Position numbers and translations under genes: made by a program
Notes under the pieces: generated by a model
What the model saw: only the letters and a program-made list of their open reading frames with translations
Told to the model about the DNA's origin: nothing
Database searches by the model: none
Assembly (NCBI GenBank): GCA_003142475.1
Contig: PLMK01000039.1
Location: 6,351-49,194, forward strand
Reading direction: 5' to 3'
Length of the DNA: 42,844 bases
Origin: Ignavibacteriota bacterium
GTDB taxonomy: Bacteria > Bacteroidota > Ignavibacteria > UBA10030
In this document: positions 3,761-39,272 of the stretch, piece after piece
How positions within the stretch are numbered: position 1 is the stretch's first letter
Layout: each line of letters begins with the position of its first letter

Positions 3761-3767
3761 GAAGTTA

Positions 3768-5131: not shown

Positions 5132-5174
5132 AACTCTTCTCCGTCGAAGCGATGGCTCAATGAACTTATCGGAT

Positions 5175-5202: not shown

Positions 5203-5231
5203 CCGTTCACTTTATCATTCACGCGAACGGT
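5202..5231 (-). other. Hairpin after the atp operon
   Basis: ACCGTTC and GAACGGT form a 7-bp stem starting 14 bases after the atpG stop. No U-tract follows, so it may be an RNA-stabilising 3' structure rather than an intrinsic terminator. Confidence 0.35.
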
Positions 5232-5245
5232 AAAACGAAAAATCT

Positions 5246-6145
5246 TTAACTTGCTTTTTTAAGCGCCTCTGCCCCGCTGACGATTTCAACCAACGCTGTC
5301 GTGATACTTGCCTGCCGTGCCTTGTTATAAGACAACGTCAGATCACTGATCAGTTCTTTGGCATTCTCAGTTGCATTGTTCATTGCCGTCATCCGTGCAC
5401 CTTCTTCAGCAGTGCTGGATTCAAGCAAAACATGCCACATAAGGAAATTTAAATGCTTCGGCAGCAGCACATTAATAATTTCATTGCTCGATGGTTCATA
5501 GATATAATCCACCTGAGCGAGTGTGTGGATATCTTTTGTCTTCTGAATTTGTTCTGGAGGAATCGGTAAGACCTGTTCAACAACAACCCGCTGATGAATA
5601 ACGGATTTAAACTCGTTATAGATGACTTCTACCTTATCAAATTCACCTTTTAGGTAATCGTCCGTCAATTGCTGAATGATTGTTCTTGCATGACCGATAT
5701 GAAGATTACCAAATAAACCGATATGCTTAGCATAAAGGTTGTAATTTTTCTTCAAGAAGAAGTCGGTTGCTTTTTTCCCAACCGTAACAATACGAACTCC
5801 GTTGGGCTCCTTTAAAAGATTTGAATAATGAGTATTCAAATGATCAACAGCAGCTTTGATAATATTGCCGTTGAAAGCTCCACACATTCCTCGGTCACCT
5901 GAAACTACAACCAGTACAACTCGTTTAACTTCCCTTTCAAGCAATAACGGATGGATAGAGGGATCGACTTTTATAACAAGATGTCTAAGCAGTTCGTTCA
6001 TCTTACGGGCATAAGGACGTGCTGAAATAAGCGCTTCCTGCGCATGGCGCAGCTTTACAGCAGCGACCATTTTCATGGCTTTAGTAATTTTCTGCGTGCT
6101 CGTTACACTCGTTACACGGCGCCGGATTTCTCGAAGCGTTGCCAT
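5246..6145 (-). CDS. atpG: ATP synthase F1 gamma subunit
   Basis: Gamma is the central rotor shaft that couples the c-ring to the catalytic hexamer. Family features in the 299 residues are the N-terminal coiled-coil helix (MATLREIRRRVTSVTSTQKITKAMKMVAA), VVVSGDRGMCGAFN in the Rossmann-like middle, and the C-terminal helix with EEGARMTAMNNATENA followed by LTLSYNKARQASITTALVEI. It lies 3 bases after atpA and is the last gene of the cluster. The beta and epsilon genes that often follow are absent. Confidence 0.97.
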   Translation of the reverse strand: MATLREIRRRVTSVTSTQKITKAMKMVAAVKLRHAQEALISARPYARKMNELLRHLVIKVDPSIHPLLLEREVKRVVLVVVSGDRGMCGAFNGNIIKAAVDHLNTHYSNLLKEPNGVRIVTVGKKATDFFLKKNYNLYAKHIGLFGNLHIGHARTIIQQLTDDYLKGEFDKVEVIYNEFKSVIHQRVVVEQVLPIPPEQIQKTKDIHTLAQVDYIYEPSSNEIINVLLPKHLNFLMWHVLLESSTAEEGARMTAMNNATENAKELISDLTLSYNKARQASITTALVEIVSGAEALKKAS

Positions 6146-6148
6146 GGA

Positions 6149-7702
6149 TTACTTTATCGTCTCTTTAAATTTCTGGACAAATTCTTTCGCGATATTATGA
6201 AGATTCGCTTCAAGATCTTTGGAGAGTTCTTTTGTCTCGGCAATAGCATCGAGTACATTCGAATATCTCATTTCCATCATTTCGAGAAACTCTTTTTCAA
6301 ATCGCTGTACTTCTGTCAATGATAACTCGTCCAAATATCCATTTGTGCCGGTGAATATACTCGCCACCTGTTTTTCAACAGGCATAGGAATGTATTGATC
6401 TTGCTTGAGCAATTCCACAAGGTGTGATCCTCGACGTAATGTTTGCTGCGTTGATTTATCAAGATCTGACCCGAACTTTGCAAACGCTTCCAACTCGCGA
6501 TATTGAGCAAGATCCATGCGTAAACGTCCCGCTACTTGCTTCATCGCTTTGATTTGCGCGTTGCCACCGACACGCGATACCGAAATACCAACATTGATAG
6601 CTGGTCGAACGCCAGCATTAAACAAATTGGGCTCAAGATAAATCTGACCATCAGTGATTGAGATAACGTTTGTCGGAATGTAGGCTGAAACGTCGCCCGC
6701 CTGCGTTTCAATGATCGGCAATGCAGTAAGACTTCCACCACCGAGCTCATCATTAAGCTTTGATGCTCGCTCTAATAACCGTGAGTGCAGATAGAATACA
6801 TCGCCAGGATATGCTTCACGTCCCGGAGGTCTGCGCAAAAGTAACGACATTTGGCGATACGCTTGTGCATGCTTTGATAGGTCATCGTAGATCACAAGTG
6901 CATGACGACTGGAATCGCGAAAATATTCTCCCAGCGTGGCACCCGCATATGGGGCGATGTATTGCAACGGTGCAGAATCGCTTGCCGATGCATGAATCAC
7001 TGCTGTGTATTCCATCGCACCATTTTCTTCTAGTGTTGCTACTACCTGCGCAACTGTCGATCCTTTTTGACCGATAGCAACATAAATGCAATAGACAGGC
7101 TTGATGCCTTCTTTCTTTGCCTTTTCCGTATGTGTATATTTTTGATTGATAATTGTATCAATCGCAATTGCAGTTTTTCCAGTCTGACGATCACCGATAA
7201 TGAGTTCTCGCTGCCCACGTCCAATTGGAATCATGCCGTCCACCGGTTTGAGACCGGTCTGAAGCGGTTCTTTTACGGGACTTCGAGCAATTACGCCAAG
7301 TGCTTTACGTTCCAACGGAAGAAATTTATTTGTCTTGATTGGTCCCTTCCCGTCAAGAGGTTGTCCAAGCGGTGTCATCACGCGGCCAAGCATTTGCTCA
7401 CCCACGGGCATAGACGCAACACGGCCTGTTCGTTTCACCGTATCGCCTTCCTTGATATGGGAAGTCTCACCAAAGATCACGCATCCGACATTATCTTCTT
7501 CGAGATTTAATGCCATACCGAACACATTGCCAGGGAACTCTACCAACTCACTTGCCATGACTTTTGAAAGACCGTAAACACGTGCGATGCCATCACCTAT
7601 CTGCAAAATAGTGCCAACATCATACACATCTACTTCTTTTTCAAAACCGGAAAGCTGCTTCCGTAATATTGCCGATACTTCATCAGGTCGTACTTCTGCC
7701 AT
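6149..7702 (-). CDS. atpA: ATP synthase F1 alpha subunit
   Basis: Alpha forms the non-catalytic nucleotide-binding positions of the alpha3beta3 hexamer. The 517-residue length is typical. Motifs include the P-loop GDRQTGKT (170-177), [45 protein letters not shown] and the signature [17 protein letters not shown]. The glutamine in GDRQTGKT distinguishes alpha from catalytic beta, which carries GGAGVGKT. It sits between atpH and atpG. Confidence 0.98.
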
Positions 7703-8855: not shown

Positions 8856-9083
8856 CTACTTTAATGCAAGAAGAATGCAAATCGCAAGTGCAAAAAAGGT
8901 TGCACCTTCGATAAGTGCTGCGGCAATCAACATCGATACACGAACTTCCGCAGCAACTTCCGGCTGGCGTCCACTAGCTTCCATTGCGGCGGCGGCAAGT
9001 TTACCGATACCGAACGCTGCTCCCAATATAACGATTCCAGCTCCAAATCCTGCGGCGAGATATGCTATTGCATTTGGTTCCAT
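8856..9083 (-). CDS. atpE: ATP synthase Fo subunit c
   Basis: This 75-residue proteolipid has two membrane helices joined by the polar loop SGRQPE, whose RQP contacts F1. The ion-carrying carboxylate is E59 in ALIEGATFFA. The Na+-type signature (Gln in helix 1 with Glu-Ser in helix 2) is absent, so proton coupling is inferred. K28 in GIGKLA lies inside helix 1; Lys or Arg here is, as I recall, common in Bacteroidota-type c subunits. An AGGAGGA SD precedes the ATG. Confidence 0.96.
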   Translation of the reverse strand: MEPNAIAYLAAGFGAGIVILGAAFGIGKLAAAAMEASGRQPEVAAEVRVSMLIAAALIEGATFFALAICILLALK

Positions 9084-24163: not shown

Positions 24164-26371
24164 TCATCTAAGCAAAACAAGTTTCTTTGTTTCAGTAAAT
24201 GAGCCGACCTGCAAACGATAAAAGTAAATTCCGCTCGACATATTTACTGCATTCCATTGTTTCGAGTAACTTCCTGCCGACATTTCTTCAGAGACAATGG
24301 TTGCCACATCTCTTCCTATCAAATCAAATACTTTCAGCGATACAAACGATTTAGATGGAAGACTAAATGAAATAGTTGTTGATGGATTAAAAGGATTCGG
24401 ATAATTTTGCGACAGTGCATATCCTTTTGGAATCTCAGCATTTTCTTTTACATCTGTTAGAACTCCATACCCAATTAGTGTGATTGTATCGGGTGAAGAA
24501 GGCGCATTGCTGACAACAATTATTTTACCATTCATACCTCCAACCGGTATTGAACTAATATGGATATAAGCATTTGTAGATGCGCCAGGACTAATGATTG
24601 ACGTAGATATACTTGGTAATGGGCAGATTGACTCAAAAATGCCGTTCCAAGTTCCAGCAAAGAGATTCGTACCTGAAACAGCAAGAGACCAGACATGTTC
24701 GGTATTGACTGCAGTCCAGCTTGAGCCATTGTTTGTGGAAAGAAAAACGCCGCCCCAAGTCCCAGCAAAGAGATTCACACCTGTGACGGCAAAAGCATAG
24801 ACAAAAAGGGCATTGTCCGTTAAGCCAGCATTAATTGTACTCCAGCTTGTGCCATTGTTTGTGGAAAAAAAAACGCCGCCCCAAGTACCGACAAAGAGAT
24901 TCGTACCGGAGACTTCAAGAGCACGGACAGTACTATCCGTCAAGCCTGTATTGACCACAGTCCAGCTTGTGCCATTGTTTGTGGAAAGGAAAACGCCAGC
25001 ATCACCTCCGGCAAAGAGATTCGTGCCGGATACGGCAAGAGCACGGACCGAAGAGTATGTCAAGCCGGTATTGACTTGATTCCAGCTTGTGCCATTATCG
25101 GTGGAAAGAAAGACGCCTCCCTGTGTCCCGGCAAAGAGATTCGTACCGGAGACGGTAAGAGCACCGACATAAGTGTTCGTCAAGCCAGTATTAACTGTGC
25201 TCCAGCTTATGCCGTTATTGGTGGAAAGAAACACTCCACCGCCATCAGTCCCGGCAAAGAGATTTGTGCCGTAGACAGTAAGAGCACGGATATCAATGTT
25301 CGTCAAGCCGGTATTGACTGCTGTCCAGTTTGTGGGTCGATTTGAGAGACTAGATATTATCAAATCATTGGTACCTGTGTTGGTAATTGATACAACTGCG
25401 TCTTGAATTGTCCCTGCATTAACTGTCCCTAAGTTAATGTTTGAAAAGGAAATCCTTGCTTTGTTAGTATCAGTGCCGGTTGTATATCTATATGTCCCAG
25501 AATAATTACTTGTTCCAGCACCGTTTGTCGAACTAACACGCCAGAAATATTGCGTATTGGAATTAAACAACGGCCTCGGACGATATAATGTATCTGTAAA
25601 TGAACTATCTTTGAGAAGAGTAGTGAAAATTGGGCTCATGCTTACCTGAAGATTGTATGATGTTGCATTCTGTACATTCGACCAACGCAATACTGCGTTC
25701 ACTGGAATATTTGTTGAAGCATTGAGTGGAAATAATAGATTGGGAACAACTGGAACGAATGGTATGGTTAGAAAATTTCTTGGACTGGAATACGCTGTAG
25801 TATCTCCATTAATATATGCCCTCACTCTCCAATAATATGTTGTAGACCGATTTAACGAATCTAAAATGACAGTGGTTGAAGTTATATCAATGCTCTGCGC
25901 AATTATCTCAAAGTCTGATTGCAGTGATAGCTGCAATGTATATTTTGCCGATGACAACTCACTAGCCCAACTAAGAGTGGGCTTCAAATTTATATCAATA
26001 GCTCCAGTAGCTGGATTTGAAAGAGATGGTATATTCAACTTAGTGGTAAACATCGAATTAGCCCAACTCGATGCACCATCAGTATTTTCTGCTCTCACTC
26101 TCCAATAATATTTAGTGGACATTTGGAGAATCGATGTTGAATAAGTTGTATCTGAAATTGATTGGTTAACCACTGTCGACCCAAAGAGGTTATCTGTAGA
26201 TATTTGTATTGTATAGGCAAGAGCCAGTGGAGATTTACTCCAGAAAAAATTTACTGGACTTGTTACAGCCGTTGACCCATCTTGAGGCAAAACAATTGTG
26301 ACAGGTGAAGGTTGTGCATTCAAAATGGATCCGGTAAGCAAAAATAATACAAATAGTAGATATTTATACAT
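24164..26371 (-). CDS. Secreted T9SS-type multidomain protein with beta-propeller repeats
   Basis: The start is ATG at 26371, giving signal peptide MYKYLLFVLFLLTGSILNAQ; a longer frame to 26545 would bury it. The 735 residues hold three Fn3-like domains (about 22-112, 113-205, 206-300), each with a YxWRV strand. Next comes the first half of an ASH/HYDIN-like domain (307-343). Six repeats of about 40 residues (349-580) follow, with core SGTNLFAGTxGGVFLSTNNGTSW. The apparent second half of the ASH-like domain is 586-637 (ISPGAST...SSPDTITLIGYG). A T9SS type-A sorting domain (about 652-735) ends GIYFYRLQVGSFTETKKLVLLR. It is probably exported across the outer membrane and attached or released; the ligand is unknown. 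Confidence 0.85.
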   Translation of the reverse strand: MYKYLLFVLFLLTGSILNAQPSPVTIVLPQDGSTAVTSPVNFFWSKSPLALAYTIQISTDNLFGSTVVNQSISDTTYSTSILQMSTKYYWRVRAENTDGASSWANSMFTTKLNIPSLSNPATGAIDINLKPTLSWASELSSAKYTLQLSLQSDFEIIAQSIDITSTTVILDSLNRSTTYYWRVRAYINGDTTAYSSPRNFLTIPFVPVVPNLLFPLNASTNIPVNAVLRWSNVQNATSYNLQVSMSPIFTTLLKDSSFTDTLYRPRPLFNSNTQYFWRVSSTNGAGTSNYSGTYRYTTGTDTNKARISFSNINLGTVNAGTIQDAVVSITNTGTNDLIISSLSNRPTNWTAVNTGLTNIDIRALTVYGTNLFAGTDGGGVFLSTNNGISWSTVNTGLTNTYVGALTVSGTNLFAGTQGGVFLSTDNGTSWNQVNTGLTYSSVRALAVSGTNLFAGGDAGVFLSTNNGTSWTVVNTGLTDSTVRALEVSGTNLFVGTWGGVFFSTNNGTSWSTINAGLTDNALFVYAFAVTGVNLFAGTWGGVFLSTNNGSSWTAVNTEHVWSLAVSGTNLFAGTWNGIFESICPLPSISTSIISPGASTNAYIHISSIPVGGMNGKIIVVSNAPSSPDTITLIGYGVLTDVKENAEIPKGYALSQNYPNPFNPSTTISFSLPSKSFVSLKVFDLIGRDVATIVSEEMSAGSYSKQWNAVNMSSGIYFYRLQVGSFTETKKLVLLR
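24632..25327 (-). repeat. Six tandem beta-propeller-type repeats, conserved at DNA level
   Basis: Units of 120-126 bases, with a shorter sixth, repeat in frame. The landmark caaagagatt (plus strand) recurs at 24658, 24766, 24892, 25012, 25132 and 25255. Each unit encodes NTGLT...LxVSGTNLFAGT.GGVFLSTNNGTSW, one four-stranded blade of BNR/sortilin-like type. High nucleotide identity suggests recent internal duplication. Confidence 0.85.
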
Positions 26372-26423
26372 AGCTTTCTGCCTTCGTATCTTGAAATTGT
26401 CTTCTCGAAATGTTCCCCAATAT

Positions 26424-26466
26424 AAAGAAAGAGCCCTGGTAAGCACTTCTTTAACTACCAGAACCC
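26424..26466 (-). terminator. Probable terminator after nnr
   Basis: On the minus strand GGGTTCTGGTA pairs along all 11 bases with TACCAGGGCTC, using three G-U pairs, around a 14-base loop and followed by TTTCTTT. It lies in the 196-base gap between nnr and the T9SS protein. Confidence 0.5.
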
Positions 26467-26529
26467 TACACTTTATTTCTTTGAATTTCAAGCAGCATAA
26501 AAAGCGGCAACCATCGCTGTGCTTCTGTA

Positions 26530-26553
26530 GAAAAGGCATAGCCAAACCTTTTC
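26530..26553 (-). other. Hairpin just after the nnr stop
   Basis: GAAAAGG and CCTTTTC form a 7-bp stem with a 10-base loop, 15 bases after the nnr stop. No U-tract follows, so it is at most a weak terminator. Confidence 0.3.
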
Positions 26554-26567: not shown

Positions 26568-28121
26568 TTAAATCAATTGCATCGCGGCAGGTAAATATTC
26601 AATAAGATCATTTGCCAGGAGGCCTCGCTCTCCTAATTTCTTTGCAGCAAGGTCTCCCGATAATCCGTGGAGATACACACCTGCATAAGCGGCTTCCACA
26701 TCCGACATTCCTTGCGCCCACAAGCCGGCAATAATTCCGGAGAGCACGTCACCCGAACCTGCAGTTGCCATACCGGGATTTCCTGTCGAGTTGAGGTAAC
26801 AATTCCCTTCCTTTGATGCAGTAACAGTTGGAACACCTTTAAGCACGACCGTTGCGCCAATTTGCTTTGCTAAAACACGCGCCGCCTCTATACGATGATG
26901 TTCAACTTCGACCGATGGCAATCCTGTAAGACGCGAGAATTCTCCAACATGCGGCGTCAGAATAAATTGCGCTCGTGTTGAACGAAGCTTAGAAATCCCA
27001 TGCGCAGCGATCGCATTTAATCCATCGGCATCAACCAGCACTTTTCCGCGATACTCAAGCAGGAGTTTGAGAATTAATTGCTGTGTTTCAAGATTTTGAG
27101 ATAATCCGGGACCGAGCATCAACACATCCGCCCAGGAGAGTTTTGCGCGAATTCCATTAAGCGCGTCAAGACTTAATGTTCCATCACCCGTTGCCGGAAG
27201 TGGAAACGTCATCACTTCCGTCAGCTTGCGTGCAAGTATTGGGTAGACCGGCTCTGGTATTCCGAGCACAACTGCACCGGCACCCGCCCGCATTGCGGAA
27301 GTACTGCATAAGGCTGCCGCTCCGGTCAATCCTTTTGAACCCGCAAGCACCAGCACTTTACCGACACTGTACTTATGCGCGTGCATCGATCTCTTCGGAA
27401 TAATCCGGCGCACATCTACTTGTTCAACAAGAAAAGTGCGCATTCGTTTATCTTCTGTGATCGAGTATGGAATTCCGATATCTATACAATATACAGAACC
27501 AACCAACTCACGTCCTTGATTACAGAGCAATCCGGATTTGATAGACCCGAATGTCACCGTTATTTTGGCTCGCACTCCGTAATTCTCAACTACTCCGGTT
27601 GTTCCGTTTACACCGGAAGGAATATCCACAGCAACAATCTGCGATCCTTGATTATTCATCCAATCAATAACGTCCGCAAATGGTTTGCGGACAGAGCCAG
27701 CAAAACCGGTACCAAACATTGCGTCCACAATAATATCTGGTTTTGAAAGAGACATGAGAAGTTTTTTTGAATATCGATAAAGCTTAATTTGACGAGATGA
27801 TTTCTTAGCAAACTTTTGCAGGATTACAAAATTCTTCTTTGCATCTCCCTTCAATTCAGACGATGATGCCATCAACAGTACATTTATCATTGCGCATGAA
27901 TTTGAAAGCAGTCGTGCAATAACAAATCCATCCCCGCCATTATTTCCTTTTCCGCAAACAACAAGAATTTTTTTGGATTGAAGTGTGGGATATTGGTCCT
28001 TGATAACTTCAACAACGCCGCGCCCTGCATTCTCCATCAATAGCATTCCAGGAACGCCATATGTATTGACGGTGGTTTCATCGCACCATCGCATTTCTTC
28101 AGCTGAAACTACACGCTGCAT
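26568..28121 (-). CDS. nnr: Bifunctional NAD(P)HX epimerase / ADP-dependent NAD(P)HX dehydratase
   Basis: The enzyme repairs hydrated NADH and NADPH. Residues 1-215 form the YjeF_N epimerase domain (MLLMENAGRGVVE, VVCGKGNNGGDGFVIARLL). Residues about 230-517 form the ribokinase-like dehydratase, with VLVLAGSKGLTGAAALCS, FILTPHVGEFSRL and the catalytic GNPGMATAGSGDVLSGIIAGLWAQG. The 517-residue fusion is the usual bacterial form. It lies 21 bases after nuoN, so it may be the last gene of the nuo transcript, which fits a role in NADH quality control. Confidence 0.96.
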   Translation of the reverse strand: MQRVVSAEEMRWCDETTVNTYGVPGMLLMENAGRGVVEVIKDQYPTLQSKKILVVCGKGNNGGDGFVIARLLSNSCAMINVLLMASSSELKGDAKKNFVILQKFAKKSSRQIKLYRYSKKLLMSLSKPDIIVDAMFGTGFAGSVRKPFADVIDWMNNQGSQIVAVDIPSGVNGTTGVVENYGVRAKITVTFGSIKSGLLCNQGRELVGSVYCIDIGIPYSITEDKRMRTFLVEQVDVRRIIPKRSMHAHKYSVGKVLVLAGSKGLTGAAALCSTSAMRAGAGAVVLGIPEPVYPILARKLTEVMTFPLPATGDGTLSLDALNGIRAKLSWADVLMLGPGLSQNLETQQLILKLLLEYRGKVLVDADGLNAIAAHGISKLRSTRAQFILTPHVGEFSRLTGLPSVEVEHHRIEAARVLAKQIGATVVLKGVPTVTASKEGNCYLNSTGNPGMATAGSGDVLSGIIAGLWAQGMSDVEAAYAGVYLHGLSGDLAAKKLGERGLLANDLIEYLPAAMQLI

Positions 28122-28142: not shown

Positions 28143-29567
28143 TTAAAAGAAACGTTGAGCAACTTGAATGATGAACGAAGGAAACAGTCCAAGCACGAGC
28201 ACAGCAACTGCACATACCACCACTACCGCCAATGCCGTCCGCGATGGTTTGGATACAACATCAGCATGCCCTTCCCGGAAATACATCAATACCACAACAC
28301 GTAAATAATAATATGCAGACACAAGACTCGCAAGTACGCCGATAATCGCCAGCCATGTCATTTGTGATTTGATTGCGGCAAAGAAGACATAATACTTGCC
28401 GAAGAATCCAGCGAACGGCGGAACTCCAGCCAACGCAAACATAAAAACAGCCATAAGGAAAGCCAAGAACGGCTGCTGCCGGCTTAATCCTATGTAATCA
28501 TCGAGCAAAAGATTTTTATCATCTTTTCGTTCCACAAAACTGACGATGGCGAAAGCACCAAAATTCATCAATGTATAAGCAACAAGATAAAACATCACAC
28601 CCACTTGTCCATCGAGCGTACCGGCGGCGATACCAGAGAGCATATATCCGGCATGCGCGATGCTTGAATATGCCAGCATGCGTTTGATGTTAGTTTGTGC
28701 AATCGCGACAATGTTGCCAAGAATCATTGATGCCGCTGCAAGAAGAGCGATGAGTTCATTTACTCGTCCGCCAAGAAAATCAAATGTGCGGATGAACACG
28801 GTGATGAACGCTGCAAATGCCGCTGCCTTCACTCCTGTCGACATAAAAGCCGTCACTGTTGTCGGAGCGCCTTCGTATACATCCGGCACCCACATGTGGA
28901 ACGGTACTGCCCCCACTTTAAACGCTAACCCAATTATGAGCAGACCGGCACCGATGACAAACAAAGGATTATTCGATACAACAGCGAACAAGTTTTGAAT
29001 CATGAGAAGATTTGTTGTACCAACCGCGCCGTAGATAAGAGCAATGCCATAGAGGAGAAATCCGGTTGAGAACGCACCGAGTAGGAAGTACTTCAACGCT
29101 GCCTCATTTGCACGTTCCTTGGTACGAATGAATCCTGCCAGTACATATAAACATACCGACATTAATTCGATTCCGAGAAAAAGAATGATGAGATCATTTG
29201 CAGAAGCAATCAACATCATACCGACTGTGGTAAAAAGCAGGAGGATGTAGAATTCTCCACGATGATACTTCTGCTGTTCAAAATAATCGCGCGAAAGGAT
29301 GACTGTCATAATTGCAACAACGCAAAATAACGTACCGAAGAAATTTGCATAACCGCCGTGGCGAACCATCTCGCCAAAACTTTGTCCTTCACCAGCGAGA
29401 TTTGAAACAGCGAATAGTGCCGCTATCACCAATCCAGCTAAGCTGACGTACGAAGTTATAATCGGTTTGGTTCGGTGTGTAGCTTCCACGATCATAACCA
29501 CAAGTGCCGTCACCGTCACGATCATCATAGGTGCGTTGGAAAGGATATCACTTAAATAAATGTTCAT
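28143..29567 (-). CDS. nuoN: NADH-quinone oxidoreductase subunit N
   Basis: NuoN is one of three antiporter-like proton-pumping subunits in the complex I membrane arm. The 474 residues form about 14 membrane helices. Signatures are the Glu in helix 5 (IILFLGIELMSVCLYVLAGF), FKVGAVPFHMWVPDVYEGAPTTVTAFMSTGVKAAAF with the broken helix 7/8 and its lysines, and ANIKRMLAYSSIAHAGYML-type motifs (NIKRMLAYSSIAHAGY). It is separated from nuoM by an antiporter gene. Confidence 0.96.
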   Translation of the reverse strand: MNIYLSDILSNAPMMIVTVTALVVMIVEATHRTKPIITSYVSLAGLVIAALFAVSNLAGEGQSFGEMVRHGGYANFFGTLFCVVAIMTVILSRDYFEQQKYHRGEFYILLLFTTVGMMLIASANDLIILFLGIELMSVCLYVLAGFIRTKERANEAALKYFLLGAFSTGFLLYGIALIYGAVGTTNLLMIQNLFAVVSNNPLFVIGAGLLIIGLAFKVGAVPFHMWVPDVYEGAPTTVTAFMSTGVKAAAFAAFITVFIRTFDFLGGRVNELIALLAAASMILGNIVAIAQTNIKRMLAYSSIAHAGYMLSGIAAGTLDGQVGVMFYLVAYTLMNFGAFAIVSFVERKDDKNLLLDDYIGLSRQQPFLAFLMAVFMFALAGVPPFAGFFGKYYVFFAAIKSQMTWLAIIGVLASLVSAYYYLRVVVLMYFREGHADVVSKPSRTALAVVVVCAVAVLVLGLFPSFIIQVAQRFF

Positions 29568-29589: not shown

Positions 29590-31032
29590 TTACACGCGGA
29601 AAAAGAGATACCAGATACATGCAAATATTGGAATTAGAATTGGCAATGAATATTTTATAATATAACCAAAGAAACTTGGGCACTGAACTCCAGATTGTTC
29701 AGCTATTGACTTCACCATAAAATTCGGCCCATTGCCAATATATGTGATTGCGCCAAAGAACACTGCACCTATTGAAATTGCCTGCACATAGCGCCACGTT
29801 TGCGATGTAATCACCTTGGCTCCAGCTTGCAGCGGATTCGGTAAACCAGCCGCAGATGGAGTTGTCAGACCAAGCACTAGGTTCATATGCTGCACATTGT
29901 CCACATTCGCTCCGTGTAATCCGAACGCTGCTGTTAGAAAATTCAAATATGTAGGTGCATTGTCGAGTACACTTGACAATATTCCTGATCCCCAAAAATA
30001 TTGTCCCGGCGTTACAATGCCAATGCTTGCCGCATTCAATTCCAACCAGTCAAGCGCCGGAATCATCGTTGAAAAAATTCCAGCAAACAATATTGCTACT
30101 TCTTTTAGCGGTACAAAGTTAAAATTATTCTTCTCGTGAATTTCTTTCTTTGTTGTCAGGAACGAAGCAAGTGCCGCGCTCCACATAATAACTTCACGCA
30201 GCATCAATGGTGCAGGTGATTCTATGAACACCGCCGCAATAATAATGAGAAGAAATACGATGTTATGCAGTCCAGATACTTCCGGCTCGTCTATCTCAGC
30301 AGCAGCTGCTTTCTTTACCTTGATCGATTCCTTCCGAAAGTTATACACATCCATCACATAAAAGACAATCAGGATCATTCCGACCGTCATAATCCAAATG
30401 GTGGAGACACGAGTGATTATCCAGAAAAAAGGAACACCTTTTAGAAATCCAAGAAACAATGGCGGGTCGCCAATCGGCGTTAAAGCACCGCCAATGTTGC
30501 TTACGAGAAAAATAAAAAAAACAACATGATAACCCTTGATGCGGTACTTATTAATCCGTAAAAAAGGACGAATCAACAACATCGACGCACCGGTTGTGCC
30601 AAGAATATTTGCAATGACTGCGCCGGTGGCGAGCAATGCGACGTTTCCTTTCGGTGTTGATTTTCCGCGTAATCGTACATGGATTCCGCCAGATACAACG
30701 AACAACGATCCGATGAGCGATATGAAACTTATATATTCATACGATGTCAGAAAAAGCCGCGGAGTGTTGTGGAGCGAAAATGTGTAATAGAAAACGACAA
30801 CGAATCCCAGAGTGAACGCAACATGTGGATAATTTTTTTCCCACCATTGCCTGTCGATAAACGGCATAACAGCAATTGATAGGAGCAATAAAAGGAACGG
30901 TGCTATAAACCACGCGTTCACAGGTATCACTTCTACAGCTGTTAGATAATTCCCGAAAAAATTATACAACGCCATCACACCAACAGCGATAATGGCAAAT
31001 TTCCAGACAAGATTTTTAGTTTGTGATTTCAA
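29590..31032 (-). CDS. NhaD/CitMHS-type sodium:proton antiporter or carboxylate transporter
   Basis: A 480-residue polytopic protein (about 11-12 helices) of the ion transporter (IT) superfamily. The two inverted-repeat hairpin motifs are visible: SNIGGALTPIGDPPLFLGFLKG and GSGILSSVLDNAPTYLNFL. These fit the NhaD/CitMHS_2 branch often annotated as sodium:proton antiporter; citrate or another anion cannot be excluded. The TTG start (31032) directly follows the nuoM TAA with no spacing, so translation is probably coupled to nuoM. It is not a standard complex I gene. Confidence 0.8.
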   Translation of the reverse strand: MKSQTKNLVWKFAIIAVGVMALYNFFGNYLTAVEVIPVNAWFIAPFLLLLLSIAVMPFIDRQWWEKNYPHVAFTLGFVVVFYYTFSLHNTPRLFLTSYEYISFISLIGSLFVVSGGIHVRLRGKSTPKGNVALLATGAVIANILGTTGASMLLIRPFLRINKYRIKGYHVVFFIFLVSNIGGALTPIGDPPLFLGFLKGVPFFWIITRVSTIWIMTVGMILIVFYVMDVYNFRKESIKVKKAAAAEIDEPEVSGLHNIVFLLIIIAAVFIESPAPLMLREVIMWSAALASFLTTKKEIHEKNNFNFVPLKEVAILFAGIFSTMIPALDWLELNAASIGIVTPGQYFWGSGILSSVLDNAPTYLNFLTAAFGLHGANVDNVQHMNLVLGLTTPSAAGLPNPLQAGAKVITSQTWRYVQAISIGAVFFGAITYIGNGPNFMVKSIAEQSGVQCPSFFGYIIKYSLPILIPIFACIWYLFFRV

Positions 31033-32607
31033 TTATTTTTTTCCGGATTGTAATTGTACATAACCAAGGAATCGTACCTGCGATCCATGCTTCACGCTTT
31101 CCATCTGCTCGACGGTGTGTTTTACTAATTTAGCTGATTTACTAAGAAATGGTTTAGGATAAATACCAATCCACACGATAAAAAGCACAATCGGAACGAG
31201 CACGGCAATTTCTCGTTTTGTCAAATCGGTAAGATGATGTCCGCCATAAAGACCATCTTGGTGTGCAGGTCCAAACATCACTCGTTGATACATCCACAAC
31301 ATATATACAGCCGAAAATATAATACCAAGTCCAGCGATTCCGGTAAATACTCGATTATCTATCAAAGTTGATTTGAACGATCCTATCATAATCAAGAATT
31401 CACCAATGAAGCCATTCAATCCGGGTAAGCCAATAGACGAAAAGGAAATAATCATGAAAAAGGTTGCGAAGATCGGCATCAGCTTCGCTACCCCGCCATA
31501 ATCTACAATTAATCGTGTGTGTGTTCGATCGTACAGCATGCCGACAAGCAAGAAGAGTGCACCTGTCGAAAGCCCGTGGTTAACCATTTGAATGATTGCG
31601 CCTTGCAATCCTTCTTCGGTCATCGAAAATATTCCGAGCATCACAAATCCCAGGTGTGAGACAGACGAATACGCAACAAGTTTCTTGATATCGGTTTGCA
31701 CCATTGCTACTAAAGCGCCATATACGATTCCGATGACAGCGAGTGTGCACATAAGTGGTATGGCACGCAGCGATGCATCGGCAAAGAGCGGTAAGTTGAA
31801 ACGGATAAAACCGTACGTACCCATCTTCAATAATACACCGGCAAGAATAACACTGCCAGCCGTCGGTGCTTCGACGTGAGCGTCGGGTAGCCACGTATGC
31901 AGCGGCCACAGCGGCACTTTGATGGCAAAACTCAAGCCGAACGCCGCGAACATCCACATTTGCATGTTAACCGGGAGCATCGGTGCAACATGATAGAGAT
32001 CAAGCAAATCAGTCGTGAATAGCCCACCGGGAACAGTCGAAGCAAAATACCCAAGAGAAATAATCGCAACAAGCATCAACACACTACCAAACAATGTATA
32101 GAGAAAGAATTTTACAGCCGCGTAAATGCGGTTTTGTCCGCCCCAAATTCCGATAATAAAGTACATCGGTATAAGCATTGCTTCCCAAAAAATATAGAAG
32201 AGGAACAAATCGAGCGATGCAAAAACTCCGATCATCCCAACTTCCAGCAATAGCACCATCGCTGTATAATTCTTAATCTGCTGCTGAATAGAATTCCACG
32301 TACCCAAGAGTGCCAGCGGTGTCAGAAATGTTGTCAGGAGAATCAGCAAGAGCGACATCCCATCAATGCCAACATGATAGCCGATATTCAAACTGCTTAT
32401 CCAGATATTTTTTTGTTGGAATTGAAATCCAAAAATGGCTGCATCAAATCCGAAATAAAGAACGAGCGAAACAAGGAAGGTCAATGCCGTCCCTACAAAT
32501 CCAATCAGTTTGATGATTCGTTCGTTTTCTTTCGGAAGAAAGAGGACGACGATAGCAAAGATCAGCGGAAGAAATATTACTGCCGTCAAGATGAATTCAG
32601 AAATCAT
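31033..32607 (-). CDS. nuoM: NADH-quinone oxidoreductase subunit M
   Basis: NuoM is the middle antiporter-like subunit. With the ATG at 32607 it has 524 residues beginning MISEFILTAVIFLPLIFAIV, preceded by a GGGA SD; a GTG at 32646 would overlap nuoL. Signatures are FYIFWEAMLIPMYFIIGIWGG (helix-5 Glu), FAIKVPLWPLHTWLPDAHVEAPTAGSVILAGVLLKMG and DIKKLVAYSSVSHLGFVMLG. About 14 helices are predicted. It follows nuoL by 20 bases. Confidence 0.96.
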   Translation of the reverse strand: MISEFILTAVIFLPLIFAIVVLFLPKENERIIKLIGFVGTALTFLVSLVLYFGFDAAIFGFQFQQKNIWISSLNIGYHVGIDGMSLLLILLTTFLTPLALLGTWNSIQQQIKNYTAMVLLLEVGMIGVFASLDLFLFYIFWEAMLIPMYFIIGIWGGQNRIYAAVKFFLYTLFGSVLMLVAIISLGYFASTVPGGLFTTDLLDLYHVAPMLPVNMQMWMFAAFGLSFAIKVPLWPLHTWLPDAHVEAPTAGSVILAGVLLKMGTYGFIRFNLPLFADASLRAIPLMCTLAVIGIVYGALVAMVQTDIKKLVAYSSVSHLGFVMLGIFSMTEEGLQGAIIQMVNHGLSTGALFLLVGMLYDRTHTRLIVDYGGVAKLMPIFATFFMIISFSSIGLPGLNGFIGEFLIMIGSFKSTLIDNRVFTGIAGLGIIFSAVYMLWMYQRVMFGPAHQDGLYGGHHLTDLTKREIAVLVPIVLFIVWIGIYPKPFLSKSAKLVKHTVEQMESVKHGSQVRFLGYVQLQSGKK

Positions 32608-32627
32608 CACATCAATCCCATTTTTCG

Positions 32628-34556
32628 TTACCTCAATAACAGCCACGTAATCACAAAGAGAATACCCCCGATAAACACTACTGCATACGACTGCGCTATA
32701 CCAGTTTGAATTTTCCGTAGGATTTTACCAATACCGTTGATAATTTTCGCCGAGCCATTAACTGATCCATCAATCATTGTAACGTCAATTGCCTTCCAGA
32801 GTATATCATTTGATATTTTCACCGTAGGAGCGACAACCACTGCATCATATATTTCATCCACATAATATTTGTTGAGCAACGTCCGATAGATCCGAGGGTA
32901 CCGTCTCGCAAGAGACACAGCAAGTTCTGCACGCTGTAGATATATCCAACGTGCCGCATAGGTGCCGGAAACAGCGATTGCAACTGAGACAAACATCAAC
33001 AGATATTCCATCAATCCGCCAGTATGTTCACCGGAAAGCAATTTATATTGAGCCGGAGAGAAGACGGGTTCAAGCCAATTCTCGATGACGCTTGCATGCG
33101 GAATACCGACAAACCCTCCTACTATCGACAAAATAGCAAGAATAATTAGTGGCATAGTCATTGTCTTTGGTGCTTCATGCGGATGCACTCGATGAGGATC
33201 GAATCGCTTCTCGCCTTCAAATGTAAGAGTCACCAGTCGGAACATATAGAACGCCGTCATTGCTGCTCCAAATACGCCGAGTAGCCATAGTACCGGAGAC
33301 CCTTGCTCGCTGCTAAACGCCCTCCAGAGTATTTCATCTTTGCTAAAAAATCCGGCAAATGGCGGAATGCCGGCAATCGCAATCGCGCCAATGAGAAATG
33401 TTTTATACGTAACCGGTAAGTATTTTTTCAATCCGCCCATCTTTTGAATATCCTGTTCATCGTGCATTGCATGGATGACGGCACCGGAACCAAGGAAGAG
33501 GAGCGCTTTGAAAAATGCATGAGTCATCAAATGAAATATGCCAGCGCTGAATGCCGCCACACCCATTGCAAGAAACATATATCCAAGCTGGCTGATTGTG
33601 GAATACGCAAGAATCTTCTTGATATCGTTCTGCACCAATCCGATTGTCGCCGCGAAAACTGCCGTTACTGCACCTACGATTGCTATAAATTCCATCGTCA
33701 CCGGAGCAAGTGCAAAAAGAATTGAGCAGCGTGCAACCATATATACACCAGCCGTTACCATAGTTGCGGCATGTATCAATGCGCTTACCGGCGTGGGACC
33801 AGCCATGGCATCAGGCAACCAGACATACAAAGGAATCTGCGCTGATTTACCCATCGCGCCTATGAATAGCAGCATCGTAATCCATAAAGCAGTTGTGTTC
33901 CCTACCGATAGCAGCGACGCTGAGTTAAATACTGTACTGAAGTTTAAACTGCCAAATGTGGAAAAGATCAATAGCATACCGAGAATGAATCCAAAGTCGC
34001 CGACGCGATTGACGATGAATGCTTTTTTTGCTGCGTCGCCTGTGAATTTCTTTTCGTACCAAAATCCGATGAGCAAATAGGAGCAAAGCCCAACGCCTTC
34101 CCAACCGAGGAACATGAGCAGGAAATTATCAGCAAGTACAAGATTTAGCATCGCAAAGATAAAGAGGTTCATATAGGCAAAGAAACGCCAGAAGCCAGTG
34201 TCGTTATGCATATAACCGATGGAATAAATATGAATTAAAAATCCAACTCCGGTTACAATGAGCGTCATTAAAATCGATAACTGATCAATTTGATAGGCGA
34301 CATTGACGGTGAGCGAGTTTGATGAACCAGTGAATGTCGAAAGCCATGTGAATAATTCCACCGATTGCTTTCGCTGCCCCGGTTCAATACCCAACATCTG
34401 TATGAAAAGTGCTAAAGCAAGAAAGAAGGATAATCCTACCGTGCCGCTGCCGATCACACCAATGAGTTTTTTATTCTTCATCCGCGAACCGAAAAGTCCA
34501 AGAACGAGGAATCCTATGAGAGGAAAGACTATAATTAGTGGTGCGTATGAATACAT
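32628..34556 (-). CDS. nuoL: NADH-quinone oxidoreductase subunit L
   Basis: NuoL is the distal proton-pumping subunit. Its 642 residues include NFLLMFLGWEGVGLCSYLLIGFWYE, FIGAMGKSAQIPLYVWLPDAMAGPTPVSALIHAATMVTAGVYM and DIKKILAYSTISQLGYMFLA. The C-terminal part holds an amphipathic segment (about 545-615) and a last membrane helix. These match the lateral helix that separates true complex I NuoL from stand-alone Mrp antiporters. ATG at 34556 is used; an adjacent TTG (34559) would add one residue. Confidence 0.96.
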   Translation of the reverse strand: MYSYAPLIIVFPLIGFLVLGLFGSRMKNKKLIGVIGSGTVGLSFFLALALFIQMLGIEPGQRKQSVELFTWLSTFTGSSNSLTVNVAYQIDQLSILMTLIVTGVGFLIHIYSIGYMHNDTGFWRFFAYMNLFIFAMLNLVLADNFLLMFLGWEGVGLCSYLLIGFWYEKKFTGDAAKKAFIVNRVGDFGFILGMLLIFSTFGSLNFSTVFNSASLLSVGNTTALWITMLLFIGAMGKSAQIPLYVWLPDAMAGPTPVSALIHAATMVTAGVYMVARCSILFALAPVTMEFIAIVGAVTAVFAATIGLVQNDIKKILAYSTISQLGYMFLAMGVAAFSAGIFHLMTHAFFKALLFLGSGAVIHAMHDEQDIQKMGGLKKYLPVTYKTFLIGAIAIAGIPPFAGFFSKDEILWRAFSSEQGSPVLWLLGVFGAAMTAFYMFRLVTLTFEGEKRFDPHRVHPHEAPKTMTMPLIILAILSIVGGFVGIPHASVIENWLEPVFSPAQYKLLSGEHTGGLMEYLLMFVSVAIAVSGTYAARWIYLQRAELAVSLARRYPRIYRTLLNKYYVDEIYDAVVVAPTVKISNDILWKAIDVTMIDGSVNGSAKIINGIGKILRKIQTGIAQSYAVVFIGGILFVITWLLLR

Positions 34557-34594
34557 CAATTCACTTTCTACTAACTACTTTTTACTTAATAACC

Positions 34595-34897
34595 TCACCA
34601 CTTCATAATATTGATTTCATCTAAATTAATTGTTTGCTTGCGTCGGAAGAGTGCGATGACTATTGCAAGACCAACCGCCGCCTCCGCCGCCGCCAACGTC
34701 ATGACAAAGAATACGAGTACTTGGCCAGTCGCATCTCCGAAGAATGCCGAAAAAGCAACAAGAGTCAGATTGACAGAATTTAACATTAACTCGATGGACA
34801 AGAACACTATAATCGCATTTCGGCGCGTAACCACACCCATAGCACCAATGATGAACATAATAGCGCTTAAAATAAGATATGCTTGTAATGGAACCAT
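34595..34897 (-). CDS. nuoK: NADH-quinone oxidoreductase subunit K
   Basis: NuoK is a 100-residue subunit with three membrane helices (MrpC-like). The two conserved membrane glutamates are in [13 protein letters not shown] (E36) and [20 protein letters not shown] (E72). The start [24 protein letters not shown] is typical. It lies 38 bases before nuoL and 43 after nuoJ. Confidence 0.96.
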
Positions 34898-34940: not shown

Positions 34941-35450
34941 CTAATCGAGTTTCTTTTTCGCAAGAACAATTGCACCGACAATCGCCGCTGTAAGTAAGAG
35001 CGATGTCACTTCGAATGGAAACAGGAAACGCGTAAAAAGCACGCGTCCGATTGCCTCTACAGTTCCTACATTCGTGGCTCGCTCCATTTCGATCGATGGT
35101 GTTCCGATTTGCATCATAAATATGTAAATCAATTCCATTAAAACGCCGAAGCCGAGACCGCCAGCCGCGACTTTCTTCCAAGTGAATCCGTCTCGCAAAA
35201 GACTCTCGTTGCCAAGATTGAGCAGCATAATTACAAAAACAAATAAAACCATAATGGCGCCTGCATACACAAGAATTTGAATGACTGCAATGAATTGAGC
35301 ATGCAAAGTCAGATAAATACCGGCAAGACAGAAGAAATTCACTATGAGATATATCGCTGAGATGATTGGATTGCGGCGCGTTACAACGAGCAATGCAGAG
35401 ATGATGCCCCCTGCTGCAAAAATATAAAACAATATTTCTTCGAGTGTCAC
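34941..35450 (-). CDS. nuoJ: NADH-quinone oxidoreductase subunit J
   Basis: NuoJ is a five-helix membrane-arm subunit. GTG at 35450 gives 169 residues beginning MTLEEILFYIFAAGGIISALLVVTRRNP, the usual N-terminus, with a GGAT SD; TTG at 35483 would add 11 residues but has no SD. The conserved third helix reads FIAVIQILVYAGAIMVLFVFVIMLL, including the Tyr-Gly/Ala pi-bulge region. It is the first nuo gene visible and follows an ABC permease by about 36 bases. nuoA to nuoI are absent. Confidence 0.93.
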   Translation of the reverse strand: MTLEEILFYIFAAGGIISALLVVTRRNPIISAIYLIVNFFCLAGIYLTLHAQFIAVIQILVYAGAIMVLFVFVIMLLNLGNESLLRDGFTWKKVAAGGLGFGVLMELIYIFMMQIGTPSIEMERATNVGTVEAIGRVLFTRFLFPFEVTSLLLTAAIVGAIVLAKKKLD

Positions 35451-35486
35451 AGATTCAATCCAATAATTTGTTTGATGAATCAAATC

Positions 35487-36734
35487 TTATTTTTCACGTA
35501 CCCAGCGGACAAGCTCAACAAATGTTGGTCGCTTCCCGTATGATAAAACTGCTACTCGGAAAATTTTCCCTGCTGCCCACATCATTACGATGGATGAAAC
35601 GATAAGAAGTGCAATAGTACTCAATATTTCCCATAAGGCCGGCATCTGCACAGAAATTCGCAAGACCATCAACGTTGGTGTAAGCAATGGAATAAAAGAC
35701 AACACTTTTATCCAAACCGAATTTGCATTTTGCATTACAGGCATGGCAATGACCATTGGAAATACAAGCAATAAACTTACATACGTTGTAATTTGCTGCG
35801 CTTCCTGCTCGGTAGTAACTGGAGAACCAGCAGCAACGAATATTGCAGAATAAAAAATATATCCCAAAACAAAATAAACAAGTGAAAGCATCAGATTCAT
35901 AGTTGTGAAGATGTTTGCCCCTGTTTTTAATGATACTGCAAAGCCAATCATACCCCAAATCAACATCTGTACAATTCCAAGTCCGCTAAGACCGAATATT
36001 TTTCCTACCATCAAATCTCGTGCAGAGCAAGATGAAAGAAGCACTTCAATAACACGATTCGTTTTTTCTTCTACAACGCTTCGAATGAGAAGCTGACCCG
36101 ACGTCATTACTAAAAAAAGCAGCATCATAATAACTATATAACCGCTAAAAAATGTCTCAAGAAAACCCGTTTCCTTTTCATCACCTTTTTCGGAAACTTT
36201 AATGGATTTTACATTAACGTCCGCAGTAATTTTTTTAATGAGCGAAGGATCCAAGCCCTGCTTCAGAATCCGGCTTTCGACGATTACTTCTTCTATTGTA
36301 CGAGAGAATCGTTCTTGAATTTTTATATTACTAACGTTCTCAGATCGATACTCAACTTTACCACTATCGAAGATAGACGAAGGAAAATAAAAATAACCTG
36401 TTATATCTCCTGCCGTCACCATTTTGTTAGCTGCCATCTTCTTTTTTTCAATAACCCCTTGTGAACTTAAATTCTTTATAACATAGTTTGGTTGACCATC
36501 CGGTAATTTGTATTTTTCGTCAAGCCTTCTGGCAAGCGGGCCAATAATGCTATCGGTTTCATCAATTATTCCAACAACAGTCGCATCTGCATCTGGGCGC
36601 GATACAAGCAGCCCCGGTAAAACACCAAACAGAATCATAATAATCGGCATAATGACAAGCGAGATAATAAACGCTTTCGACTTAATTTTTTCGCTAAATT
36701 CCCATGCTGCAACTTGGAACGCTTTGGATTTCAT
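35487..36734 (-). CDS. ABC-2 type transporter permease (NatB-like)
   Basis: This 415-residue permease has a cytoplasmic N-terminus, one early helix (AFIISLVIMPIIMILFGVLPG), a large extracytoplasmic domain (about 45-190) and five or six helices. SGQLLIRSVVEEKTNRVIEVLLSSCSARDLMVGKIFG is the hallmark of the NatB/YhaP ABC-2 group. The start ATG (36734) has an AGGAGG SD and overlaps the ATPase stop as ATGA. Relatives export sodium, lipids or drugs; the substrate is unknown. An upstream frame to 36812 lies inside the ATPase gene and is not used. Confidence 0.9.
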   Translation of the reverse strand: MKSKAFQVAAWEFSEKIKSKAFIISLVIMPIIMILFGVLPGLLVSRPDADATVVGIIDETDSIIGPLARRLDEKYKLPDGQPNYVIKNLSSQGVIEKKKMAANKMVTAGDITGYFYFPSSIFDSGKVEYRSENVSNIKIQERFSRTIEEVIVESRILKQGLDPSLIKKITADVNVKSIKVSEKGDEKETGFLETFFSGYIVIMMLLFLVMTSGQLLIRSVVEEKTNRVIEVLLSSCSARDLMVGKIFGLSGLGIVQMLIWGMIGFAVSLKTGANIFTTMNLMLSLVYFVLGYIFYSAIFVAAGSPVTTEQEAQQITTYVSLLLVFPMVIAMPVMQNANSVWIKVLSFIPLLTPTLMVLRISVQMPALWEILSTIALLIVSSIVMMWAAGKIFRVAVLSYGKRPTFVELVRWVREK

Positions 36735-37921
36735 AGACGTTCCTCCTGTGATGCTTTTGTTATGAACTCTTGTTTCACTTTTTTTTTCGTCTGGAAGAAC
36801 CGGACAGCACACAAGATTGTCACGGCAGATAAGATCCCGATTGGCATAAACTGCGGATGTATTTGACTGAAAACGAACACTGTAAAGGCAAGAGTGAGAA
36901 CACTCGCCCCAATCAAGGAAAACAATGCTTTCCGAACTCGTCCATCAAGCATCACAAGATCGTCGGTTGATTTTTGCTGCACCTGTAAAGCAGGAATTGG
37001 TTTCTCACTTGCTTGTTCAATTTTATCCGGTCCGCCAACAACATTGATAAAGATAGAATTCAATGACGGTTCGACAATCTCAAATTTTCTCAATGATAGT
37101 TTTCCATTGAGACTCGCGAGCAATTCGCTACTTCTGGAAATATCAGTAAGTTCAAGTTCAGCATAATTCTGATATATATCAGCGCGGCGGATGAAGCTAA
37201 AACTTTTCAGGAATTCACCATCGCCCTCATATTCGAGATGGATGGAGTTCGTTCCGTACTGCTTCTTAATTTCATATAATTGTCCGCTTAGCACAGGTTT
37301 CCCTTTGTTGATCAAACAAATGTTATCGCACATTTTTTCCACTTGTTCCATTTGATGCGTAGAGAAAACAATAGCGGTATTCTGCTGGCGAAGCTCAAGT
37401 AAAATATCTTTTAAGAGAATCTGGTTAACCGGATCAAGTCCTGTGAATGGCTCATCAAGAATCAAAAGTTCCGGACGGTGAAGAATGGAAAGGATAAGTT
37501 GAACCTTCTGCTGATTTCCTTTTGAAAGCTCCTCGACCTTCCGGTGACCTTCATTTTTCAGTCCAAATCGTTCCAGCCAATAATATGCCAGAGGTTTAGC
37601 TTGTTGAGCAGCATATCCCTTGAGCGATGCGAAGTATAAAATCGTGTTTATGATTTTACTCTTGCGGTACAATCCTCGTTCTTCTGGCAAGTAACCGATA
37701 CCATTCCACATTTCCTTAGTGAATGGCTTACCATTGAATGTAATTTCGCCGCTGTCTGGTTGAATGATGTTCAACACTGTACGAATAGTTGTCGTCTTGC
37801 CGGCGCCGTTGGGACCGAGTAAACCGAACAATTCGCCGCGATTTACTTCCAGCGAAACGCCATCCACTGCAACAACGTTATCGTACTCTTTTCGTAAGTT
37901 TTTAACTTTAAGCATGTTCAA
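36731..37921 (-). CDS. ABC transporter ATPase with C-terminal membrane hairpin (NatA-like)
   Basis: The ATPase domain (1-220) has Walker A GLLGPNGAGKTTTIR, signature LSKGNQQKVQL, Walker B LLILDEPFTGLDP and the H-loop STHQ. A DUF4162-type domain (about 225-300) follows. Unusually, the 396-residue protein continues with two predicted membrane helices (about 331-350 and 359-375) and a basic tail. Normal NatA-type subunits end near residue 250-310. The downstream permease overlaps by 4 bases. No frameshift or fused gene is apparent in the extension. Confidence 0.9.
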   Translation of the reverse strand: MNMLKVKNLRKEYDNVVAVDGVSLEVNRGELFGLLGPNGAGKTTTIRTVLNIIQPDSGEITFNGKPFTKEMWNGIGYLPEERGLYRKSKIINTILYFASLKGYAAQQAKPLAYYWLERFGLKNEGHRKVEELSKGNQQKVQLILSILHRPELLILDEPFTGLDPVNQILLKDILLELRQQNTAIVFSTHQMEQVEKMCDNICLINKGKPVLSGQLYEIKKQYGTNSIHLEYEGDGEFLKSFSFIRRADIYQNYAELELTDISRSSELLASLNGKLSLRKFEIVEPSLNSIFINVVGGPDKIEQASEKPIPALQVQQKSTDDLVMLDGRVRKALFSLIGASVLTLAFTVFVFSQIHPQFMPIGILSAVTILCAVRFFQTKKKVKQEFITKASQEERL

Positions 37922-37973: not shown

Positions 37974-39272
37974 TTAAGGTGTATTTCGATAAATCATACG
38001 CGGGAATGGAATAGTCTCCCTCACGTGTTCTAATCCGCAAATCCAACCTACGGTACGTTCTACACCAAGTCCGAATCCGGCATGAGGCACACTGCCGAAA
38101 CGACGTAAATCAAGATACCATTCGAATGCTTCCTGCGGAAGTTTATGTTCTTTGATTCGCGCTAATAGAACATCTAAATTATCTTCGCGTTGGCTGCCGC
38201 CGATAATTTCGCCATATCCTTCCGGCGCAAGCACATCAACTGCGAGAGCAACTTTTGGGTTTTCTGGATCGCGTTTCATATAAAATGCTTTCACTTCAGA
38301 CGGATAACGATGTACCATCACCGGACGATCGAATTGCTCGGAAACAACGGTCTCATCTGTTCCACCAAGATCATTTCCCCACTCGAATGGCAATCCTTTA
38401 TCAATAAGAATTTTCACCGCTTCATCATATGTAATACGCGGCAGCGGTTTTTTTACATTCTGGAGTTTCGTAATATCACGCTCCAGCACTTTCAATTCAG
38501 GCAGACAATCTTTCAAAACACTTTGAACAATGTATTCTAAAAAATCTTCTGCCAGATCCATATCATCGTTCAAATCGTTAAAAGCAACTTCCGGTTCTAC
38601 CATCCAAAATTCTGTTAGGTGTCGGCGCGTTTTCGATTTTTCCGCACGGAATGTTGGACCAAAGCAATACACTTTTCCCATTGCCATCGCACTTGCTTCT
38701 GCATACAATTGACCCGACTGCGTGAGATATGCTTTTCCAAGATCGAAGTAATCAGTATCAAAAAGAGTTGAAGTTCCTTCGCAGGCGGCAGGAGTTAGGA
38801 TTGGCGAATCGACAAGAGTGAATCCTCGTCCATCAAAGAAATCGCGAATAGCTTTGATAATGCGGTGCCGCACGCGCATTATTGCATGCTGGCGCGTGGA
38901 GCGTAACCATAAATGGCGTCGGTCTGCTAGAAATTCGATCCCATGCTCTTTAGGAGTGATTGGATATTCCTCTGCGACCTGATAGATTTTGGGAATATCC
39001 AACAAATCCAACTCAAAGCCTCCGGGTGCGCGGTCATCTTTGCGCACTTTCCCTCTGACGGAGAAGGAAGATTCCTGTGTAAGCGTATCAAATAAATCAA
39101 AAATGCTATCTGGAACTTGCCCCTTCACCATTACACACTGCACAACTCCGGTTCCATCCCGCATCAAAAGAAAACGAACCTTACCGCTCGAACGTTTGTG
39201 AAACAGCCATCCATGAAGCTGAACTTCCTTGCCTTCATGCAAGCCTAGTTCATTAATATAAGTGCGCGCCAT
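37974..39272 (-). CDS. asnS: Asparaginyl-tRNA synthetase
   Basis: AsnRS charges tRNA-Asn. The 432 residues contain the N-terminal OB-fold anticodon-binding domain ([31 protein letters not shown]). The class II catalytic core follows, with motif 2 [25 protein letters not shown] and motif 3 [29 protein letters not shown]. Asn rather than Asp specificity is inferred from the [17 protein letters not shown] form. A direct enzyme suggests tRNA-Asn does not depend on GatCAB. The ATG has an AAGGA SD and a promoter at 39308-39336. Confidence 0.93.

Follow-up and report, generated by a model that had tools for sequence, protein, structure and literature searches.

A probable NhaE-type antiporter gene between nuoM and nuoN of an Ignavibacteriota complex I cluster, at a place held by three antiporter families in related genomes

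The distal membrane-arm genes of a complex I cluster in an Ignavibacteriota bacterium (assembly GCA_003142475.1, contig PLMK01000039.1) enclose a gene for a secondary transporter, and the place that it occupies, directly after nuoM, is held in same-order relatives by members of three unrelated antiporter families. The gene was studied within a window, i.e. the whole stretch of 42,844 nucleotides that was analysed, and its product is quite probably an Na+/H+ antiporter of the NhaE type, a member of the IT superfamily, which would be co-expressed with the distal subunits in the membrane arm of a proton-pumping complex I. According to this model, complex I would generate the proton-motive force, of which the antiporter would spend a part in moving Na+ out or, at alkaline pH, in bringing H+ in, and the placement within the operon would match the antiporter dose to the pump dose. 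The place after nuoM in type-A complex I clusters would then act as an antiporter slot, filled by NhaE, CPA, Mrp, or combinations of these.

The antiporter gene (positions 29590 to 31032, minus strand, as are all cluster genes given here) encodes 480 residues from a TTG start that abuts the nuoM stop, and a 22-bp gap separates its end from nuoN. It is preceded by nuoJ (34941-35483; PF00499, 146 bits), nuoK (34595-34897; PF00420, 101 bits), nuoL (32628-34559; TIGR01974, 797 bits) and a type-A nuoM (31033-32646, stop included; TIGR01972, 631 bits), and is followed by a type-A nuoN (28143-29567; TIGR01770, 473 bits). These five identities agree in Pfam and NCBIfam, so that both the zero spacing after nuoM with nuoN close by and the embedding in a complex I membrane-arm cluster, as put forward in a preliminary description of this DNA, are borne out. 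In three congeners the gene starts at the same place, again with zero spacing after the nuoM stop (TTG in G004, ATG in G001 and G003), which supports the TTG start site, and the antiporter is present as a single copy in the window's genome at E <= 0.001. Promoter and terminator scans yielded 39 candidates against 30.5 in shuffles (sd 5.3) and 18 against 13.7 (sd 3.7), respectively; being slightly above the shuffles and on both strands, these counts argue neither for nor against separate transcription.

Upstream of nuoJ lie an ABC-2 type permease (35487-36812; PF12698, ABC2_membrane_3, 160 bits), a DrrA-like ABC ATPase (36731-37921; PF00005, ABC_tran, and PF13732, DrrA1-3_C) and a class II aminoacyl-tRNA synthetase of the D/K/N type, read as AsnS (37974-39272; PF00152, 245 bits), while nuoN is followed by the gene for the bifunctional NAD(P)HX epimerase/dehydratase NnrD (26568-28121; PF01256 and PF03853). 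The order tRNA synthetase-ABC-ABC-nuoJKLM-slot-nuoN-NnrD is conserved in relatives. The ABC pair (35487-37921) had been proposed to be NatAB-like and to form a shared ion-homeostasis unit with the antiporter: the pair is real and conserved, but the unit is not supported, since the tRNA synthetase and NnrD are likewise conserved and the neighbourhood of the pair alone therefore says little. A NatAB identity is not established by the domains of the pair (ABC2_membrane_3; ABC_tran with DrrA1-3_C) and its conserved synteny. At the other end of the cluster, the NAD(P)HX repair gene lies directly 3' of nuoN, all 35 nuoN-NnrD junctions measured in relatives being shorter than 600 bp, and beyond it the window holds a gene (24164-26545, minus strand) for a large, internally repetitive protein whose C-terminal tail, by eye, resembles a type IX sorting signal. 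Elsewhere in the window, the ATP synthase c subunit (8856-9083) shows E followed by G and lacks the Na+ motif of c subunits, which fits a proton economy.

The occupancy of the place after nuoM was surveyed in 61 genomes, namely that of the window and 60 same-order relatives. A type-A NuoM, defined as a best NuoM match of at least 58% identity at E <= 1e-90, was found in 57 of them, G006 and G014 having type B only and G026 and G051 none. An NhaE gene is present in 48 of the 61 genomes, and in 41 of the 57 it comes directly after the type-A nuoM and in the same orientation, a frequency that excludes chance placement; with a further seven genomes in the other families f17, f27 and f34, the arrangement is thus not unique to the window's genome, which was the point that the preliminary description had left to a gene-order survey. 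A nuoN was seen beyond NhaE in 33 of these 41 genomes; in the others, either the contig ends before nuoN (G022, G034, G043, G046, G055) or other genes follow NhaE (G044, G049, G052). Besides, eight genomes without any NhaE match carry another exchanger directly after nuoM, i.e. Mrp genes in seven (G002, G015, G032, G037, G042, G047, G058) and a CPA exchanger in one (G008), with nuoN downstream in G008, G015 and G058 and not within the fetched stretch of the other five. Altogether, 49 of the 57 type-A genomes have one of the three unrelated antiporter families after nuoM, and nuoN is met downstream in 36 of these 49 filled slots; the contig ends first in seven (G002, G022, G034, G043, G046, G047, G055), and in G032, G037, G042, G044, G049 and G052 the fetched stretch shows no nuoN.

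Some intervals are shared, by NhaE and Mrp genes in G023, G041 and G046, by NhaE and CPA in G010 and G016, and by NhaE and an opposite-strand CPA in G033. Pfam confirmed PF00999 for the CPA genes, and PF01899, PF03334, PF04039, PF20501 and PF00361 for representative Mrp subunits from three genomes. As to the way in which incomplete loci were scored, contig ends truncate the NhaE gene of G005 and G012, and two small frames intervene in G054; of the Mrp genes, G002, G046 and G047 show only a part, at contig ends, and G037 an interrupted set; G038, where the contig ends, and G039, where NhaE lies about 3.8 kb from nuoM with other genes between, were counted as not linked. An Ignavibacteria-like nuoLM-NhaE-nuoN-NnrD order was also noticed on a contig filed as Ectothiorhodospiraceae (L087), which is possibly misbinned. 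The presence of exchangers of unrelated kinds at the same spot suggests that pump and sodium exchanger are made together, and G002, with its Mrp genes, forms with the NhaE-bearing genome of the window a close pair, within one genus, for testing this link.

It could be argued that the nuoM-nuoN junction is a tolerant insertion point of a well expressed operon and that the antiporters travel there as passengers, a reading to which we attach a small probability. In its favour, genes for Usp, CN_hydrolase, GH8, PAP2 and PIN proteins, unrelated to antiporters, occur in a few nuoM-nuoN intervals, NhaE persists where nuo genes are absent, and empty slots exist. However, a neutral slot should not fill mainly with one function, and here three unrelated families account for 49 of 57 places. 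The Mrp marker MnhE, which was not found in the window's genome, was detected in 11 of the 61 genomes, 10 of which have it immediately behind nuoM or NhaE, G019 being the only one with MnhE elsewhere. Both markers are present in four genomes, NhaE only in 44, MnhE only in seven and neither in six, a negative association (Fisher p 8.5e-4) that is uncorrected for kinship, four of the seven MnhE-only genomes belonging to one family. The junctions inside nuoJKLM and those of type-B complex I are not used in this way either: among 60 fetched loci, the nuoM-nuoN interval exceeds 600 bp in 31 of the 37 that show both genes, as against 0/33 for ABC-ABC, 0/40 for J-K, 0/44 for K-L, 1/50 for L-M, 0/35 for N-NnrD and 8/34 for the interval between the ABC permease and nuoJ, and it is shorter than 500 bp in all 19 type-B regions, which were picked by hand. 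An antiporter slot, rather than a neutral one, is what this distribution points to.

The slot is empty, with nuoN adjoining nuoM, in 6 of the 57 type-A genomes (G009, G018, G035, G053, G059, G060), four of which carry NhaE elsewhere; in G059, two stops interrupt the alignment of the NhaE match. The copies of G035 and G059 (L064 and L068), located away from nuo genes, group with Verrucomicrobiota sequences, probably through transfer, as if the slot had first lost the function and the genome had later reacquired it. In G006, whose NuoM is of type B only, NhaE lies between the ABC permease and NnrD with no nuo genes there, and the order AsnS-NhaE-NnrD without nuo genes recurs at four loci (L148, L150, L210 and L211, from two f7 genomes, BMS3Abin04 and a Melioribacteraceae MAG), so that the antiporter can serve without linked nuo genes. 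These loci also bear on the idea that the protein is bound to the membrane arm as an accessory subunit, acting as an extra ion module. Its constant place beside nuoM, with zero spacing within the genus, would agree with such a role, but the occurrence of NhaE at sites without linked nuo genes, together with the unrelated CPA and multi-subunit Mrp systems at the same place, argues against a fixed interface, and we hold this explanation to be very improbable.

The protein itself matches PF16980 (CitMHS_2) over nearly its full length with 474 bits, against a curated cut-off of 25.7, and PF03600 (CitMHS) weakly, with 38.9 bits against 31.9; it has no match among NCBIfam models at E <= 0.001. An alignment of 14 homologues displays invariant stretches that include LTPIGDPP, LD-AP-Y and TYIGN-PN. 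Over 455 columns, the protein is 46% identical (E 2e-129) to L206 of G067, a genome that is probably Rhodothermus marinus, and L206, the sole match to it in G067 at E <= 1e-60, is taken here to be the NhaE founder protein of R. marinus. In view of this identity, the best name for the product is NhaE-type Na+/H+ antiporter, as predicted from its sequence, rather than citrate carrier, and the NhaD/CitMHS-type assignment of the preliminary description, right as to a transporter for which sodium exchange is favoured, is corrected to NhaE/CitMHS_2. Comparison with G004, of the same genus, gives a dN/dS of 0.098 for the antiporter gene, near those of NuoM (0.078) and NuoN (0.086); the gene is under purifying selection.

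Since a sequence search of solved structures gave no match up to E 1, a fold comparison was needed. The AlphaFold model, built with 14 sequences (pLDDT 82, pTM 0.85), is predicted to adopt the fold of the IT superfamily, ArsB being matched by VIA-align with Z 23.5 over 384 residues and NaDC3, Pho90, NaS1, NaDC1 and INDY with Z 15-21; Foldseek alone matched Pho90 and a TRAP transporter, and nothing else, at E <= 0.001. Carboxylate carriers (NaDC1, NaDC3, NaCT, INDY) are among these predicted fold neighbours, and Pfam calls PF16980 "putative citrate transport", which is a name and no tested function. Both facts would accommodate a carrier of carboxylates or other anions whose adjacency to nuo genes reflects substrate uptake coupled to respiration. 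We nevertheless find this improbable: the same place in relatives is taken by Mrp and CPA, known cation/proton antiporters, and the probable R. marinus homologue, at 46% identity, is presented as a Na+/H+ exchanger in the review PMC9408914, according to which it makes E. coli resistant to Na+ but not to Li+. A citrate carrier as the main reading was rejected on these two grounds. Na+/H+ exchange is the favoured predicted activity by analogy, because unrelated Na+/H+ antiporters (Mrp, CPA) occupy the place of NhaE in some relatives, and the presence of these two unrelated types there is the best evidence for it.

In a sample of 148 genomes from the wider phylum, NhaE was found in 79 at E <= 1e-60 and NuoM in 110 at E <= 1e-100. 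NhaE directly follows nuoM in 20 of the 148. Thirteen of these belong to the window's class, and the other seven to families f17, f27 and f34; these seven, G067 among them, all have the order nuoJKLM-NhaE-PCD-nuoN, PCD being identified by Pfam (PF01329) in two and by tblastn in all seven. A further 20 regions of the phylum were picked by hand for lacking NhaE beside nuoM. The interval between nuoM and nuoN is empty in 14 of them, which comprise all 12 from the window's class (L245-L256) as well as L257 and L263, and holds PCD in the other six, so that use of the slot characterises certain lineages and is no general rule. PCD lies in this interval in four regions from f26. In three of these, where it alone fills the interval, NhaE (L260) or Mrp genes (L258, L264) stand divergently beside nuoL; this flank is a second place of NhaE/Mrp alternation. 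In L257 (G064, family f18; 1500-7700), about 6 kb, including a 1492-codon frame, separate nuoL from nuoM. A conserved protein of about 120 aa is encoded between NhaE and nuoN, or NnrD, in f7, f14 and other Ignavibacteria (L209:8794-9204, minus strand; L212:8685-9056, minus strand; L101, L134, L145, L148, L150 and L210), and the four members tested have no Pfam match over the cut-off. Finally, no nuo gene was seen in the flanks fetched for the Verrucomicrobiota homologues that are among 80 named loci; these loci are the best 80 of 588 confirmed and therefore lean towards close kin.

The window's genome has two complex I gene sets, type A in the window and type B in L005, and in the latter nuoM and nuoN are adjacent, with no insert. 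Type B (here L005:2837-9186, contig C79 of G000) is found in many relatives as well, its NuoM being 46-53% identical to that of the window. In addition, NuoH, recognised by profile, is encoded with NuoG and NuoI, read from translations, on another contig of the same genome, which may complete the type-A set.

The origin of the nuo-linked NhaE was approached with 171 loci, which gave 154 rows of at least 330 aa (142 distinct); 109 rows, with the window's, were used, most contig-end loci being left out and the named loci without nuo linkage, mostly from Verrucomicrobiota, being thinned to a random 18. The resulting quick tree contains 61 linked, 40 unlinked and 8 unlabelled rows, the linked ones forming two large groups besides some scattered rows, and requires 13 changes of linkage as opposed to 31.7 in shuffles, none of 500 shuffles being as low. 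When 75 rows were constrained together, a group chosen after the tree had been viewed, the likelihood was 10.16 higher (p-AU 0.68). A single origin of the nuo-linked NhaE is possible; as the constrained tree is not worse, gain and loss, one and several origins, and replacement and loss of one out of two ancestral antiporters are indistinguishable here.

Whether complex I is tied to sodium transport has long been debated in bioenergetics, and a slot filled by unrelated Na+/H+ antiporters represents an independent evolutionary sign of such a tie. The slot could be exchangeable if the type-A complex I moved Na+ itself or needed a matched Na+ exporter, within one inherited H+/Na+ cycle, a wider proposal that we consider rather doubtful.

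An antiporter between nuoM and nuoN is reportedly already known from a single organism, R. marinus, whose nqoB operon is said to have been described by Melo and colleagues in 2005 as a series nqo10-14 in which nhaD and pcd separate nqo13 from nqo14. This is presumably the very order nuoJKLM-NhaE-PCD-nuoN of the seven genomes of f17, f27 and f34, and we take the R. marinus protein that gives Na+ resistance to be the product of the antiporter gene of that operon. The window resembles the nqoB operon in its nuoJKLM-antiporter-nuoN series on one strand, but differs from it in having no PCD between antiporter and nuoN (with the PCD query, nothing in the window reached E <= 1e-4, and the gap to nuoN is 22 bp), in being flanked by the ABC genes, the tRNA synthetase and NnrD, and in having same-order relatives with CPA or Mrp at this place, which that description is not known to include. 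At the protein level, the closest family is NhaE (TC 2.A.111; R. marinus, Neisseria meningitidis), the window's protein having 46% identity to the probable R. marinus member and a predicted IT-superfamily fold. The NhaD family of Vibrio (TC 2.A.62) belongs to the same superfamily according to PMC9408914, and the weak CitMHS match of the window's protein would be a further resemblance, but this review sets the R. marinus protein apart in a family of its own. The Mrp (CPA3) operon differs in being multi-subunit and homologous to complex I subunits, and the window's genome lacks its marker MnhE, but Mrp genes occupy the same place in 10 relatives. PMC4607728 reports Na+/H+ antiport activity for R. 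marinus and E. coli particles, and PMC3534657 lists a second M. roseus cluster in which ndhN is separated from ndhJKLM by two loci, a gap that NhaE and the small protein of about 120 aa would fit. The portions of the open-access literature consulted (PMC5492636, PMC7599335, PMC6243061, PMC10373932, PMC5703873, PMC6143742, PMC9568556, PMC4943939, PMC4607728 and PMC3534657) contain no precedent for antiporters between nuoM and nuoN, and an antiporter slot with alternating families, as distinct from the arrangement of a single organism, seems to be new.
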